A program made the position numbers and the translations under genes. A stretch of DNA of 64,000 bases from an uncultured Hoeflea sp. (GTDB taxonomy: Bacteria > Pseudomonadota > Alphaproteobacteria > Rhizobiales > Rhizobiaceae): the NCBI RefSeq assembly GCF_947501405.1, contig NZ_CANMVK010000002.1, forward strand, positions 744,001-808,000. The letters run 5' to 3'. The notes under the pieces are model-generated. The model saw only the letters and a program-made list of their open reading frames with translations. It ran no database searches and had not been told where the DNA came from. Positions 9,838 through 40,201 of the stretch are shown piece by piece; position 1 is the stretch's first letter; every line of letters starts with the position of its first letter.

Positions 9838-11412
9838 ATGGATACTGTCGACACGATCGAGCCGGGTGTTTCAAAGTCGCGCAGGCGCGAACGCGGGGGA
9901 GGGCGCGAGGGGCGCCGCTCAGCCGGGCAGGCCTTCGCGCCGCCCCACCGCGCCACGCCCTATATTGTCCGCAACATTCCCGCCTATGATGTTCTGGGTG
10001 AAGAGAGTTTGCTCAAGATCGAAGCCACGGCCGACCGCCTTCTTGCCGAAGTCGGCATCGAGTTTCGCGATGATCCCGCGGCTTTGGAACTGTGGAAAGC
10101 CGCCGGCGCGCAAGTTGAAGGGCTACTGGTCAGGTTCGAACCAGGCATGCTGCGCGAAATCCTGAAATCGGCGCCCGCCAGTTTCACGCAGCATGCCCGC
10201 AATCCGGCCAATAATGTCGAGATCGGCGGCCGCAATGTTGTGTTCGCGCCCGCTTACGGATCGCCCTTTGTGATGGATCTCGACAAGGGGCGTCGCTATG
10301 GCACCATCGAGGACTTCCGCAACTTCATCAAGCTGGCGCAATCAAGCCCCTGGCTGCACCATTCCGGCGGAACCATCTGCGAGCCGGTCGACGTTCCGGT
10401 CAACAAGCGCCATCTCGATATGGTCTATGCGCATCTGAAATACTCCGACCGCTGCTTCATGGGTTCGGTGACCGCCGAAAGCCGTGCGGAGGAGTCGATC
10501 GATATGGCACGGATCGTCTTTGGTCGCGATTTCGTCGACCGGAACTGCGTCATCCTGGGCAATGTCAACGTCAATTCGCCGCTGGTCTGGGACGGCACCA
10601 TGACCAACGTGCTGCGCGCCTATGCGCGCGCCAATCAGGCCACCGTGGTGGTGCCCTTTATCCTCGGCGGCGCCATGGGTCCGGTGACCACTGCGGGAGC
10701 CATTGCCCAGGCACTGGCCGAAACCATGGCCGGTTGTGCGCTGACCCAGCTTGAGCGCAAGGGTGCGCCGGTGATTTTCGGCAATTTTCTGTCATCGATG
10801 TCGTTGCGGTCCGGCTCGCCAACCTTCGGTACCCCTGAACCGGCAATCGGTTCGATGGTGATCGGTCAGTTGGCACGGCGGCTGAACCTGCCTTTGCGCT
10901 GTGCGGGAAGTTTCTCGAATTCCAAGCTGCCCGATGCGCAGGCGATGAACGAGGGCACCATGTCGATGCTGTCGGCGGTGCATTGCGGGGCGAATTTCAT
11001 TCTCCACTCGGCAGGCTTTCTCGACGGGCTCTTGTCGATGTCCTATGAGAAATTCGTCATGGACGCTGATTTCTGCGGCGCGCTGCACTCCTATCTTGCC
11101 GGCGTGGTGGTCGATGACAACTCGCTCGCGCTTGACGCCTTCCGGGAAGTGGGCGTCGGCAAGCATTTCCTCGGATGCGCCCACACGATGGAGAATTACC
11201 AGACCGCATTCTGGGATTCGACCATCGCCGACAATGAGCCCTTTGAGAAATGGGACACGGCCGGACGCATCGACGCCGCTACCCGCGCCAATGCGCGCTG
11301 GAAGCAGATGCTCGGCGATTATCAGGCGCCGCCGATGGATGTGGCGACAGACGAGGCGCTGATCGAATACACTGAGCGCACAAAGGCTTCCCAGCCCGAC
11401 GCATGGTATTGA
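9838..11412 (+). CDS. MttB-superfamily (trimethylamine methyltransferase family) protein, non-pyrrolysine type
   Basis: ADRLLAEVGIEFRDDP, SGGTICEP, GNVNVNSPLVWDGTMT, ILGGAMGPVTTAG; continuous ORF without internal TAG. Confidence 0.87.
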   Translation: MDTVDTIEPGVSKSRRRERGGGREGRRSAGQAFAPPHRATPYIVRNIPAYDVLGEESLLKIEATADRLLAEVGIEFRDDPAALELWKAAGAQVEGLLVRFEPGMLREILKSAPASFTQHARNPANNVEIGGRNVVFAPAYGSPFVMDLDKGRRYGTIEDFRNFIKLAQSSPWLHHSGGTICEPVDVPVNKRHLDMVYAHLKYSDRCFMGSVTAESRAEESIDMARIVFGRDFVDRNCVILGNVNVNSPLVWDGTMTNVLRAYARANQATVVVPFILGGAMGPVTTAGAIAQALAETMAGCALTQLERKGAPVIFGNFLSSMSLRSGSPTFGTPEPAIGSMVIGQLARRLNLPLRCAGSFSNSKLPDAQAMNEGTMSMLSAVHCGANFILHSAGFLDGLLSMSYEKFVMDADFCGALHSYLAGVVVDDNSLALDAFREVGVGKHFLGCAHTMENYQTAFWDSTIADNEPFEKWDTAGRIDAATRANARWKQMLGDYQAPPMDVATDEALIEYTERTKASQPDAWY

Positions 11413-33925: not shown

Positions 33926-34016
33926 AAGCTTGTGTTTTGACGGCGGTTCGTGCATTTGAGTTTCGACCGGGCCGGAGGAGGCTCCGTCCGGAAGGTTACA
34001 TCCTCGGGAGGACACT

Positions 34017-35045
34017 ATGAAATCAGTAATCACCTTGCTGGCCGGATCGGCCATTGCGCTCACCCTGTCGACCGCGGCTTTTGCCGATGGCAACGTCATC
34101 GGCGTTTCCTGGTCCAACTTTCAGGAAGAGCGCTGGAAAACCGATGAAGCGGCCATGAAGGCAGCCATCGAAGCCAATGGCGACACCTATATCTCGTCCG
34201 ACGCGCAGGCATCCGCCGCCAAGCAGTTGACCGATGTCGAAAGCCTGATCGCCCAGGGCGCCAATGCACTGGTGATCCTGTCGGTGGACTCGGGCGCAGT
34301 CGGTGCCGCAGTTGACGCGGCCGCTGCCGAAGGCATTCCGGTGCTCGGTTATGACCGCCTGATCGAAGACGATCGCGCCTTCTACCTTACCTTCGACAAC
34401 AAGGGCGTGGGCCGCATCATTGCTGAAACAGTCAAGGCTGTGCAGCCGGAAGGCAACTACGCCATCATCAAGGGCGACAAGGGCGATCCCAATGCGCTGT
34501 TCCTGCTCGAGGGCATGATGGAAGTCATCGGCGCCGATGTCGAAGCCGGCAAGATCACCATTGTCGGCGAGGCCTTCACCGATGGCTGGAAGCCCGACAA
34601 TGCTCAGAAGAACATGGAGCAGATCCTGACCGCCGCCGACAACAAGGTCGATGCGGTTCTGTCGGAAAATGACGGCATGGCCGGCGGCGTTATCGCTGCA
34701 CTTTCCGCCCAGGGCCTCAACATTCCGGTCGGTGGCCAGGATGGCGACCATGCGGCGCTCAACCGTGTTGCCCGCGGCACCCAGACCGTGTCGGTCTGGA
34801 AAGACGCCCGTGCGCTCGGCAAGGCCGCCGGCGACATTGCCGGCATGCTCGCCGACGGCAAGGCAATGACCGAAATCCCCGGTGCGGTGAAATGGTCCGG
34901 CGGCGCCAAGGGCGTGGAGATGAATGCCATCTTCCTTGACCCGACCCCGGTCACCAAGGACAACATCAATCTCGTCATTGATGCGGGTCACATCGCCAAG
35001 GACAAGGTCTGCGAAGGCGCCATGGACGGCGTCAACGGTTGCTGA
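34017..35045 (+). CDS. xylF: D-xylose-type ABC transporter substrate-binding protein (XylF-like)
   Basis: Signal peptide, VIGVSWSNFQEERWKTDEAAMK, LGYDRLIEDDRAFYLTFDN; GGGAGG RBS. Confidence 0.85.
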   Translation: MKSVITLLAGSAIALTLSTAAFADGNVIGVSWSNFQEERWKTDEAAMKAAIEANGDTYISSDAQASAAKQLTDVESLIAQGANALVILSVDSGAVGAAVDAAAAEGIPVLGYDRLIEDDRAFYLTFDNKGVGRIIAETVKAVQPEGNYAIIKGDKGDPNALFLLEGMMEVIGADVEAGKITIVGEAFTDGWKPDNAQKNMEQILTAADNKVDAVLSENDGMAGGVIAALSAQGLNIPVGGQDGDHAALNRVARGTQTVSVWKDARALGKAAGDIAGMLADGKAMTEIPGAVKWSGGAKGVEMNAIFLDPTPVTKDNINLVIDAGHIAKDKVCEGAMDGVNGC

Positions 35046-36535: not shown

Positions 36536-37327
36536 ATGTCACAGACCGAACACGAAACCCCCTTGGTCGAGCTTCGCGATATTTCCATCGCCTTTGGCGG
36601 CATCAAGGCGGTCGATCACGCCTCCGTCGATCTCTTCCCCGGGGAAGTGGTGGCGCTGCTGGGCCACAATGGCGCGGGCAAATCCACGCTGATCAAGATC
36701 CTGTCGGGCGCCTACAAGCGCGATGCCGGCCAGATCTTCATCAATGGCGAGGAAGTGCAGATCGACAATCCGCGCGATGCCAAGAAATACGGTATCGAGA
36801 CGATCTACCAGACCCTCGCCGTCGCCGACAATGTCGACGCCGCGGCCAATCTCTATCTCGGCCGTGAACTCAAGACTGCGTGGGGCACGCTCGACGACAT
36901 CGCCATGGAGGCCGAGGCGCGCAAGGTTATGGGGCGTCTCAACCCCAACTTCCAGCGCTTCAAGGATCCGGTATCCAAATTGTCGGGCGGCCAGCGCCAG
37001 TCGGTGGCCATTGCCCGGGCTATCCTGTTTAATGCCCGCATCCTGATCATGGATGAGCCGACGGCGGCGCTGGGCCCGCAAGAAACCGAACAGGTCGGCG
37101 ATCTGATCAAGCAGCTTAAAAAGGAAGGCATCGGCATCTTCCTGATCTCGCACGACATTCATGATGTGTTCGATCTTGCCGATCGCGTCAGCGTCATGAA
37201 AAACGGTCAGGTGGTGGGCCATGCCAAAACCTCGGACGTAACCAAGGACGAGGTTCTGGGCATGATCATCATGGGAAAATGCCCGCCGGGCGCGATTCCC
37301 GGGCCTGGTGCGCTGCAAACGGTCTAA
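36536..37327 (+). CDS. xylG: Sugar ABC transporter ATP-binding protein (single-domain XylG-like)
   Basis: [58 protein letters not shown]. Confidence 0.9.
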
Positions 37328-37330
37328 GCC

Positions 37331-37360
37331 AAAAAAGCCGGGGATTTGCCCCGGTTTTTT
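37331..37360 (+). terminator. Rho-independent terminator after xylFHG
   Basis: AAAAAAGCCGGGG-ATTTG-CCCCGG-TTTTTT. Confidence 0.88.
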
Positions 37361-37504
37361 ACTTTTTGAGGGAAATCCTGCCTGATTTATGCCGGTTTCA
37401 TGGCCGATAGAGCGCATTCTAAACACATGATGTAACGCCGCTCACAGCTATTTTACCGGAAGATCAAAAATATTTTGCCGCTTCTATTGCAATGCAGCAT
37501 TTTC

Positions 37505-37668
37505 TGCCCCATATCCAAATCAACGCCAAGCCGAACCACTCCTCCTCCCAGTTCGGCCTGGCAGTCGTCGGAGCAAATTGAACCGGGATCCTCCTCCCAA
37601 GCACCGGTTCGAAGGCTTCGACATAGTACAAGCGCCTGTCGGGTTTCACCCGGCAGGCGTTTTGTTTT
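37505..37668 (+). ncRNA. Trans-acting sRNA candidate with two anti-Shine-Dalgarno hairpin loops (alpha-r14/'cuckoo'-like) and intrinsic terminator
   Basis: Hairpins 37530-37557 (GCCGAAC/GTTCGGC) and 37580-37610 (GAACCGG/CCGGTTC) both present TCCTCCTCCCA in the loop; terminator hairpin 37633-37659 then TTTTGTTTTT; 5' end estimated from TTGCCG-N17-CATTTT. Confidence 0.78.
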
Positions 37669-37669
37669 T
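37633..37669 (+). terminator. Rho-independent terminator of the sRNA candidate
   Basis: CGCCTGTCGGGT-TTC-ACCCGGCAGGCG-TTTTGTTTTT. Confidence 0.88.
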
Positions 37670-37757: not shown

Positions 37758-38645
37758 TCATTGCGGATAGAAGGCGGCCTTGTGTTCCTGGGCGATCATC
37801 GAGATGTGATCGGCGACCGTGCGCACCCGCGCCAGATCACGAGCCGATTCATGATAGACCATATAGTAGGAGCGCTCGATGCGGTGCTCGGGCAATACTC
37901 GCACCAGATCCGGATCGAGCCCGGCAATGTAATCATGCAGCACGGCAATGCCCGCGCCAGAGCGCACGGCTTCGGTCTGTCCGGTAGCGCTGGAAATCTC
38001 GAACCGCGCCTCCCAGTTGCGCAGGATCTCGCGGGTGAAATGCAGCGAGGGCGAAAAGATCAGGTCTTCGACATAGCTGATCAGCCGATGATCCTTGAGC
38101 TGCTCGGTGTTTTGCGGCGCGCCATAGGCCTCGAGATAGGCGCGCGAGGCGTAAAGCGACAGCGAATAATCCACCAGCTTGCGCGCCACCAGCCGGCCTT
38201 CAGCGGGCCGCTCCACGGTAATGGCGATGTCGGCCTCGCGCTGCGGAAGCGAAAAGCTGCGCGGCACCGGCACCAGTTGCAGCCGCAGCTCCGGATGCCG
38301 GGCGGTCAGGGATCCGAGTCGCGGCGCCAGAAACGACACGCCGAAACCGTCCGGCGCGCCGATCCGCACCGTTCCGGAGATGGCGCTGTCGGTGCGGCCC
38401 AGATTGGCCTGGGCAGCCAGCATTTCGGCCTCGATGCGTTCGGCATGGGCCAGAAACGCCTCGCCCTCGCCGGTCAGCCCGCAGCCATTGGTGCGGCGTA
38501 CGATCAGTTGTGCATCAAGCGCGGTCTCCAGCGAGGTGATTCGCCGCGCCGCCGTGGCATGGTTGATTCCCAGCCGCCGTGCCGCCGCCAGGATTTGCCC
38601 GGCGCGCGCGACCGCGAGAAACACCCTGATATCGTCCCAGTTCAT
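37758..38645 (-). CDS. LysR-family transcriptional regulator
   Basis: MNWDDIRVFLAVARAGQILAAARRLGINHATAARRITSLE; start reset to ATG 38645. Confidence 0.92.
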   Translation of the reverse strand: MNWDDIRVFLAVARAGQILAAARRLGINHATAARRITSLETALDAQLIVRRTNGCGLTGEGEAFLAHAERIEAEMLAAQANLGRTDSAISGTVRIGAPDGFGVSFLAPRLGSLTARHPELRLQLVPVPRSFSLPQREADIAITVERPAEGRLVARKLVDYSLSLYASRAYLEAYGAPQNTEQLKDHRLISYVEDLIFSPSLHFTREILRNWEARFEISSATGQTEAVRSGAGIAVLHDYIAGLDPDLVRVLPEHRIERSYYMVYHESARDLARVRTVADHISMIAQEHKAAFYPQ

Positions 38646-38773
38646 ACCGGCTCCGCTCAGCGCGTCATGGTGGTTCAACGCACTCAAACGGTATTGCGGC
38701 ATTGGCTCTGGACGGTCAAGCGGCGACCAGGAGACGGCCAGGCGCCCGGGGCTTCGGGTGGCGCCCGCCCGGC

Positions 38774-40201
38774 TCAGCCGTGGGCAATCATCACGTGGCG
38801 TACGGCGGTGTAATCCTCCAGCGCATAAAGCGACATGTCCTTGCCGTAGCCCGATTGTTTGATGCCGCCATGCGGCATCTCGTTGACCAGCATGAAGTGG
38901 GTGTTGATCCACGTGCAGCCATATTGCAGCCGCGCTGCGCAGGCCATTGCTTTCGACACATCCCTGGTCCAGACCGAGGAGGCGAGGCCGTACTCGGAAT
39001 CATTGGCCCAGCCGATGGCTTCCTCCGCATCGGAAAACCGTGTCACCGACACCACCGGACCGAACACTTCGCGGCGCACGATCTCGTCGGATTGAAGCGC
39101 ACCGGCAATCACCGTCGGCTGGTAGTAAAAGCCTGAGCCGTCACCGGGCTTGCCGCCGGTTGTGATCTCCATGTGTTTCATTTCCGAGGCGCGTTCGACA
39201 AAACTTGCCACACGGTCACGCTGCCGCCTGGAAATCAGCGGGCCAATCTCGTTTTCCGCATCGTCGCCCTGGTCGTATTTGATGGTTGAAACCGCGCTGG
39301 AAAGCTCGGCCACCAGCTTGTCGTGGATTTTGGGCGCGGCGTAAATCCGGCAGGCGGCGGTGCAGTCCTGTCCGGCATTGTAGTATCCGAAGGCGCGCAG
39401 GCCTTCGACCACGGCGTCGAGATCGGCATCGTCGAACACGATCACCGGGGCCTTGCCGCCAAGCTCGAGATGCGTGCGCTTGACCGATTTGGCCGCCGCC
39501 TGGAGCACCTTCTTGCCAGTGGCGACATCGCCGGTGATCGAAATCATCTGCACCTTGGGGTGATTGATCAGCGCGTTGCCGACGCTTTCGCCGCGGCCCA
39601 GGATCACATTGACCACCCCCTCGGGCAGCACATCGGCCATCACCCTTGCGAGCTTCAGCGCCGACAACGGGGTCTGTTCGGATGGCTTGAACACCACCGT
39701 GTTGCCGCCGCCGATCGCCGGCGCCAGTTTCCAGGCCATCATCATCAGCGGATAGTTCCAGGGCGCAATCGAGGCGACCACGCCAATCGGATCGCGCCGG
39801 GTCATGGACGTATGACCCTCCATGTATTCACCCGCCGCATTACCAGGCATGCAGCGCACGGCGCCGGCGAAAAACCGGTAGCAATCGACGATTGCCGGGA
39901 TCTCGTCATTCTTGACCGCATTGATCGGTTTGCCGCAATTGAGCGCCTCAAGGGCGGCGAAACCGTCAGCTTCCGCCTCGATCCGGTCGGCGATCTTGAG
40001 CAAGTAGCCGGAGCGTTCGGCCGGCGTCGTCCGGGCCCAGGTGGAGAACGCGGCCTCGGCGGCATCCACGGCGGCGTCGATCTGCGCCGCCGAGGCTTCG
40101 GGCAGGTTGAGAACGGTTTCACCGGTGCGCGGATTGAAGATCTGCTCCTCCGCCTCCGTTCCGGTCTCGAAGCGATTGCCGATCAGCATTTGGGTGTCCA
40201 T
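38774..40201 (-). CDS. NAD-dependent aldehyde dehydrogenase (gamma-aminobutyraldehyde / KauB-like)
   Basis: [67 protein letters not shown]; 3' end of polyamine ABC operon. Confidence 0.9.

Follow-up and report, generated by a model that had tools for sequence, protein, structure and literature searches.

Genomic setting and architecture of the sRNA gene

The window (the whole 64,000-nt stretch of Hoeflea DNA that was analyzed) holds a putative small RNA (sRNA) gene on the plus strand of contig 2, flanked upstream by a xylF-permease-xylG operon and downstream by a convergent gene for a LysR-family regulator (Table 1). The xylF gene lies two genes upstream of the sRNA, and the true start of the LysR gene is probably downstream of the listed GTG.

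Table 1. Features of the sRNA locus and its surroundings, with positions in the window
Feature	Position	Strand	Evidence or remark
xylF ribosome-binding site and start, leader CTCGGGAGGACACTATG, predicted target	34003..34019	+	
xylF-like periplasmic sugar-binding protein gene	34017..35045	+	Pfam Peripla_BP_4, 1.2e-57
xylG-like ABC ATPase gene, upstream neighbor	36536..37327	+	Pfam ABC_tran; in 16/16 homologous loci
xylG terminator, parting operon from sRNA	37332..37360	+	
PhaR-type operator TTCTATTGCAATGCAGCATTT, overlapping the -35 region	37482..37502	+	21.1 bits; core YGCRNYGCR at -32 in 17/17
Presumed promoter TTGCAA-17 nt-CATATC	37487..37515	+	Identical spacing in 17/17
Putative sRNA gene, ~150 nt (hairpin 1, compound hairpin 2, terminator)	~37520..37669	+	Fold z score; ar14 match 37520-37665; 5' TCAAC in 17/17; covariation
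Hairpin 1	37525..37562	+	Folds in window and 16 homologues; both-side changes in 5/10 pairs
Anti-SD motif 1, TCCTCCTCCCA, in hairpin 1 loop	37540..37550	+	
Compound hairpin 2 (outer stem, internal loop, inner stem)	37567..37622	+	
Anti-SD motif 2, TCCTCCTCCCA, in hairpin 2 loop	37589..37599	+	Within invariant 25-mer CCGGGATCCTCCTCCCAAGCACCGG
Intrinsic terminator hairpin and T tract, loop free of anti-SD motif	37628..37669	+	
LysR-family regulator gene, convergent downstream neighbor	37758..38912	-	Pfam HTH_1 and LysR_substrate; in 15/16 homologous loci

An earlier note on this DNA had described three hairpins, two of which expose the same anti-Shine-Dalgarno (anti-SD) 11-mer. Both of its 7-bp stems (GCCGAAC/GTTCGGC and GAACCGG/CCGGTTC) and both loop copies lie exactly where it put them, and all three hairpins are present, but the second is larger than described, with a 9-bp inner stem set on an 8-bp outer stem. 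The strong terminator said to follow the loops was also recovered, as a stem of 15 pairs and a T tract (37630-37662). The minimum free energy of the sRNA region is -71.5 kcal/mol, compared with -44.2 ± 3.8 kcal/mol in dinucleotide shuffles (z score of -7.2), and none of 200 such shuffles folds as well. Only three copies of TCCTCCTCCCA exist in the 4.45-Mb genome, two in this sRNA and one in a canonical ar14 RNA, and reversing the pattern, as a control, gave no occurrence at all; since every copy thus falls within an alpha-r14-type RNA, the double occurrence is not attributable to chance. A coding RNA was rejected, in agreement with the claim that no open reading frame explains the region: the lengths of the homologues cover all residues modulo 3, stops fall in differing frames, and no reading frame is conserved among the homologous loci.

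Conservation, covariation, and distribution

The sRNA is kept, with both loops intact, in 16 of 17 further Hoeflea genomes, each of which has exactly two anti-SD copies 48 to 52 nt apart; the exception (G008) is a 75% complete genome with a weak-match region devoid of the anti-SD motif. Covariation of the stems, suggested earlier as a check, is evident in an alignment of 17 sequences in which the anti-SD loops and the 25-mer around the second loop are invariant: 98.3% of the alignment cells pair, and 13 of the 37 pairs have changed on both sides. Neither value was matched in any of 500 shuffles, and sliding the pairing partners, as a control, reduced the paired share to 24 to 40%. Within hairpin 2, both-side changes affect 4 of 7 pairs of the outer stem; the inner stem is nearly invariant, so its support is confined to folding energy. 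We consider it likely that this is a real, conserved sRNA gene whose product works by anti-SD pairing.

Run on 249 genomes of the family, a covariance model built from the 17 sequences scores 170 to 179 bits in the four sampled genomes of the same genus, and no other genome exceeds 54 bits. Judged by these scores, the full-length form appears to be confined to Hoeflea, a restriction on which the earlier note was silent, as it was on the PhaR-type operator and the conserved complementarity to xylF described below. The lower-scoring family loci that were inspected are mostly three-loop ar14 RNAs. Two loci in another genus of the family (L077 and L085) combine two anti-SD loops with a plain terminator, and the third motif has decayed in three more (L078, L081, and L086), so loss of the terminator-loop motif seems to be recurrent, and the two-loop form would have arisen or persisted more than once. 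An archaeal metagenome-assembled contig (L137) containing a 21-mer of the sRNA was set aside as a chance match, because the anti-SD motif is not repeated within the 100 bases viewed. A literature search on Hoeflea sRNAs, made with loose terms, returned nothing relevant.

Relationship to known anti-SD sRNAs

By far the best Rfam match is ar14 (RF02344), which aligns over the full length of the model with 43.1 bits (E value of 8.9e-7). This score is below the curated ar14 cutoff of 58.8 bits, which is why a cutoff-based Rfam scan of the window is empty and why a two-loop form is easily missed. The locus shares with alpha-r14 (RF02344; NfeR1/SmelA075 of Sinorhizobium meliloti) a series of hairpins, loops displaying CCUCCUCCC, variable stems, a 3' terminator, and the predicted blocking of ribosome-binding sites on transporter mRNAs; NfeR1 silences the mRNAs of periplasmic ABC-transporter proteins via the same motifs (PMC10746234). 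The alpha-r14 type is further characterized by independence from Hfq, regulation by stress and nitrogen, and silencing of transporter mRNAs; for the Hoeflea locus, complementarity to transporter leaders was observed. As in ar14, the motif-bearing loops sit on stems of variable sequence, the loops being invariant and the stems covarying. The ar14 rule of three motif-bearing hairpins does not hold, however, because the terminator loop is without the anti-SD motif in all 17 sequences, leaving two such loops instead of three. Further differences are the compound second hairpin, a length of about 150 nt (against 123 nt for ar14), and a promoter with a PhaR-type operator in place of an NtrC or LsrB signature.

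The alpha-r14 architecture proposed in the earlier note therefore survives as the closest kinship but not in its particulars: the putative RNA is of alpha-r14 type, yet outside the strict Rfam definition of ar14, and adds a stable two-loop form to a known type of sRNA. Two-, three-, and four-hairpin forms have already been grouped in published work (PMC3927594). The source genome has a separate canonical ar14 (103.6 bits), and a canonical three-loop ar14 occurs in 16 of the 17 same-genus genomes alongside the longer, weaker-scoring sRNA. In several genomes, ar14-type RNAs were seen arrayed in tandem inside stretches of a few hundred bases (G043:C130, G025:C17, G020:C1, and G232:C54).

A kinship with the "cuckoo" (CcsR-type) sRNAs, also put forward earlier, did not hold up: the CcsR1 model (RF02791) gives 11.3 bits over 29 nt (E value of 5.8; cutoff, 65.3 bits), and membership was rejected. 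The likeness to this group in Rhodobacter is to RSs0680a, which has two hairpins with an anti-SD motif in each (PMC3927594). Unlike CcsR, the Hoeflea sRNA has no DUF1127 gene (ccaF1-type) before it, its upstream gene being xylG. It is the canonical ar14 of the genus that stands directly after a DUF1127-like small-protein gene, as in the ccaF1-CcsR arrangement of Rhodobacter (L017, L024, and L011, 1200-1530), the DUF1127-like call being made from the sequence rather than by a profile search. AbcR1/2 (alpha-r15; RF02345) likewise have two anti-SD motifs and act on transporter mRNAs (PMC8844928), the class of target predicted here, but their fold differs, and the ar15 model gives no match at the sRNA site. 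The genome's own AbcR1 lies at C1:208584-208700 and has an LsrB box.

A PhaR-type operator in the promoter region

Upstream of the sRNA, a conserved block, TATTGCAATGCAGCAT, is followed by CATAT, and the offset between the TTGCA block and CATAT is the same in 17/17 sequences. This block contains what we identify as a candidate PhaR-type operator (core sequence, TGCAATGCA), an element newly described here for the -35 region of this sRNA. The scoring matrix was built on sites of S. meliloti, not Hoeflea, that PhaR binds efficiently (PMC12542648, table 3), and it gives 21.1 bits even when the most similar training site is excluded. This value is inside the range of efficiently bound PhaR sites, although one flank position deviates from the published consensus, and only 0.2 such sites per Mb are expected in composition-matched random sequence. 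No other site in the window scores as high, and it is likewise the top site at 13 of the 16 homologous loci. As positive controls, PhaR-type sites were recovered in the same genome at two phasin loci, phaZ, and pyc, the last of which is named for S. meliloti as one of the functions altered by titration of PhaR; the genome also has a phaR gene. A second PhaR-like match in the window (60871) falls within ABC ATPase coding sequence and was taken as chance. We regard the PhaR link as a well-supported prediction, rather better than an even bet.

MmgR of S. meliloti, known as an unrelated RNA (alpha-r8), is tied to phasins and is not known for a broad anti-SD target set. It resembles the Hoeflea locus in that a PhaR site, in Hoeflea a predicted one, lies close to the start of the sRNA gene. 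MmgR is a known PhaR target, repressed by PhaR/AniA (PMC12542648).

The principal competitor to PhaR control retains the sRNA and its anti-SD mechanism but reads the TATTGCAATGCAGCAT block either as a -35 element and nothing more or as a site for a different regulator (LsrB/VtlR or the neighboring LysR protein); the sRNA would then respond to stress or nutrients in general and be unconnected to PHB. The operator palindrome does fit the generic LysR pattern T-N11-A as well, a LysR gene adjoins the sRNA, and both NfeR1 and AbcR1 are activated by LsrB in S. meliloti. The NfeR1 promoter was represented by CTTAGAC-N17-CTATAT and TGCA-N6-GCAT, plus TGC-N11-GCA in symbionts, and none of the signatures CTTAGAC, TGCA-N6-GCAT, and TGC-N11-GCA is found in any of the 17 sRNA promoters. 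The LsrB box (GCAT-N3-TG-N3-T), though kept at AbcR1 of the same genome, is present in 1 of the 17, and a scan for the sigma-70 (RpoD) consensus gave no match at the sRNA promoter, so that control by LsrB, NtrC, and an RpoD-consensus promoter, as in NfeR1, was rejected. Moreover, the conservation of the block is wider than a hexamer, and its span from -38 to -18 is a repressor-like position. We therefore consider this alternative unlikely, although it is the one to be taken most seriously. A weaker conserved block at about -85 to -65 (37436-37468, GTTTA-C/T-C...GAT-AAA), found in relatives too, is a possible activator site.

Predicted targets

The xylF leader and the sRNA are predicted to form a duplex of about -14.5 kcal/mol. 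GGGAGG precedes xylF in all 15 relatives that have this gene in the fetched stretch, extended to GGGAGGA in 13 of them, and TTGGGAGGA, the exact complement of UCCUCCCAA, occurs before xylF in 9 of the 15. Such complementarity would also suit an element acting in cis, that is, a processed tail of the xylFHG mRNA feeding back on xylF, particularly as the sRNA is on the same strand, about 190 nt past xylG. This origin is improbable, since xylG has its own terminator and the promoter-like block of the sRNA is at a fixed distance in 17/17 sequences, which together make read-through from xylG unlikely; in one relative (L041), the interval between xylG and the sRNA is about 1.5 kb larger, and both the sRNA and the promoter block are intact. 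A trans-acting sRNA, which we favor, would have targets well beyond xylF.

Genome pattern searches, on which the target counts rest, found GGGAGGA-N3-12-ATG at 114 places, compared with 10 for the reversed pattern. At least 27 of 74 sampled GGGAGGA genes encode solute-binding proteins among the Pfam families listed (Peripla_BP_4, 8; DctP, 7; SBP_bac_1, 6; Peripla_BP_6, 3; NMT1_3, Phosphonate-bd, and SBP_bac_5, 1 each; the seven families are summed on the assumption that they do not overlap). The AAGGAG control, whose genes are all on contig 1, has none in 51 among the families listed, and none is apparent from the N termini (Fisher's exact test among families listed, 7e-8). In a small AGGAGGT control of 12 proteins, one is solute-binding-like. 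Within the window, GGGAGGA places are at 9838 (+), 24175 (-), 32444 (-), and 34017 (+).

This pattern suggests that GGGAGGA ribosome-binding sites mark a set of anti-SD sRNA targets that extends across the transporters of Hoeflea, and their enrichment before ABC and TRAP-type (DctP) solute-binding genes is possibly a genome-wide signature of such sRNAs. The same sites could also be acted upon by AbcR1 and the canonical ar14, and GGGAGGA may serve strong translation of solute-binding genes, not regulation. The loops might instead act as a decoy or sponge that binds another RNA or a protein, competing with ribosomes or titrating a partner of ar14 or AbcR1. The loop motifs are indeed common to the sRNA and the canonical ar14, so the two would compete for the same partners; we know of no complementary sRNA rich in GGGAGGAGGA, however, and the target sites at start codons are numerous and of a coherent class, which leaves a sponge with little in its favor.

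Proposed regulation and its implications

The reading that we prefer, at a probability of roughly 0.6, is that of a Hoeflea alpha-r14-type anti-SD sRNA under PhaR/PHB control. The RNA would be a trans-acting, noncoding, divergent paralog of the alpha-r14 (NfeR1/SmelA075) type, found in Hoeflea only, whose two anti-SD loops pair with extended (TT)GGGAGGA ribosome-binding sites and block translation. Its main targets would be mRNAs that encode periplasmic solute-binding proteins, that of xylF in the adjacent upstream operon among them. Transcription would start from its own promoter, where the PhaR operator overlaps the -35 region: PhaR would repress the sRNA when no PHB is stored, and PHB granules would sequester PhaR and release the sRNA, as the position of the operator predicts, so that carbon-replete cells would reduce nutrient uptake. 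Structure, covariation, conservation, complementarity, target enrichment, and the PhaR-type site were computed here, and we infer from them transcription, pairing in the cell, repression, and control by PhaR.

That the sRNA is not expressed, being either what is left of a duplicated ar14 gene or a tandem terminator structure, would fit its ar14 score under the Rfam cutoff but is scarcely credible in view of the double stem changes, invariant loops, and conserved promoter block throughout the genus.

If the PhaR-controlled sRNA operates as proposed, it would close uptake when stores are full. The locus also opens a connection of bioplastic (PHB) storage to the control of nutrient uptake to direct testing. 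The further step, that Hoeflea has a dedicated carbon-storage-gated anti-SD sRNA through which full PHB stores cause many solute-binding proteins to be translated less, we put forward tentatively, with slightly less than even confidence.

PhaR-type sites were also noticed at other loci. A strong palindrome of this type, TTGCACTGCACAAA, is upstream of the DUF1127-like gene that precedes the canonical ar14 (L017, L024, and L011), and the whole alpha-r14 response may thus be tied to storage in the genus. At L066 (~1496), an ammonium-transporter-like gene has a PhaR-type site of 15.1 bits some 0.5 kb upstream, which hints at a possible connection between PHB and nitrogen, and at L055/L060 (~1498-1586), a short, secreted-looking ORF is preceded by a pair of PhaR-type palindromes with a spacing of about 70 bp.
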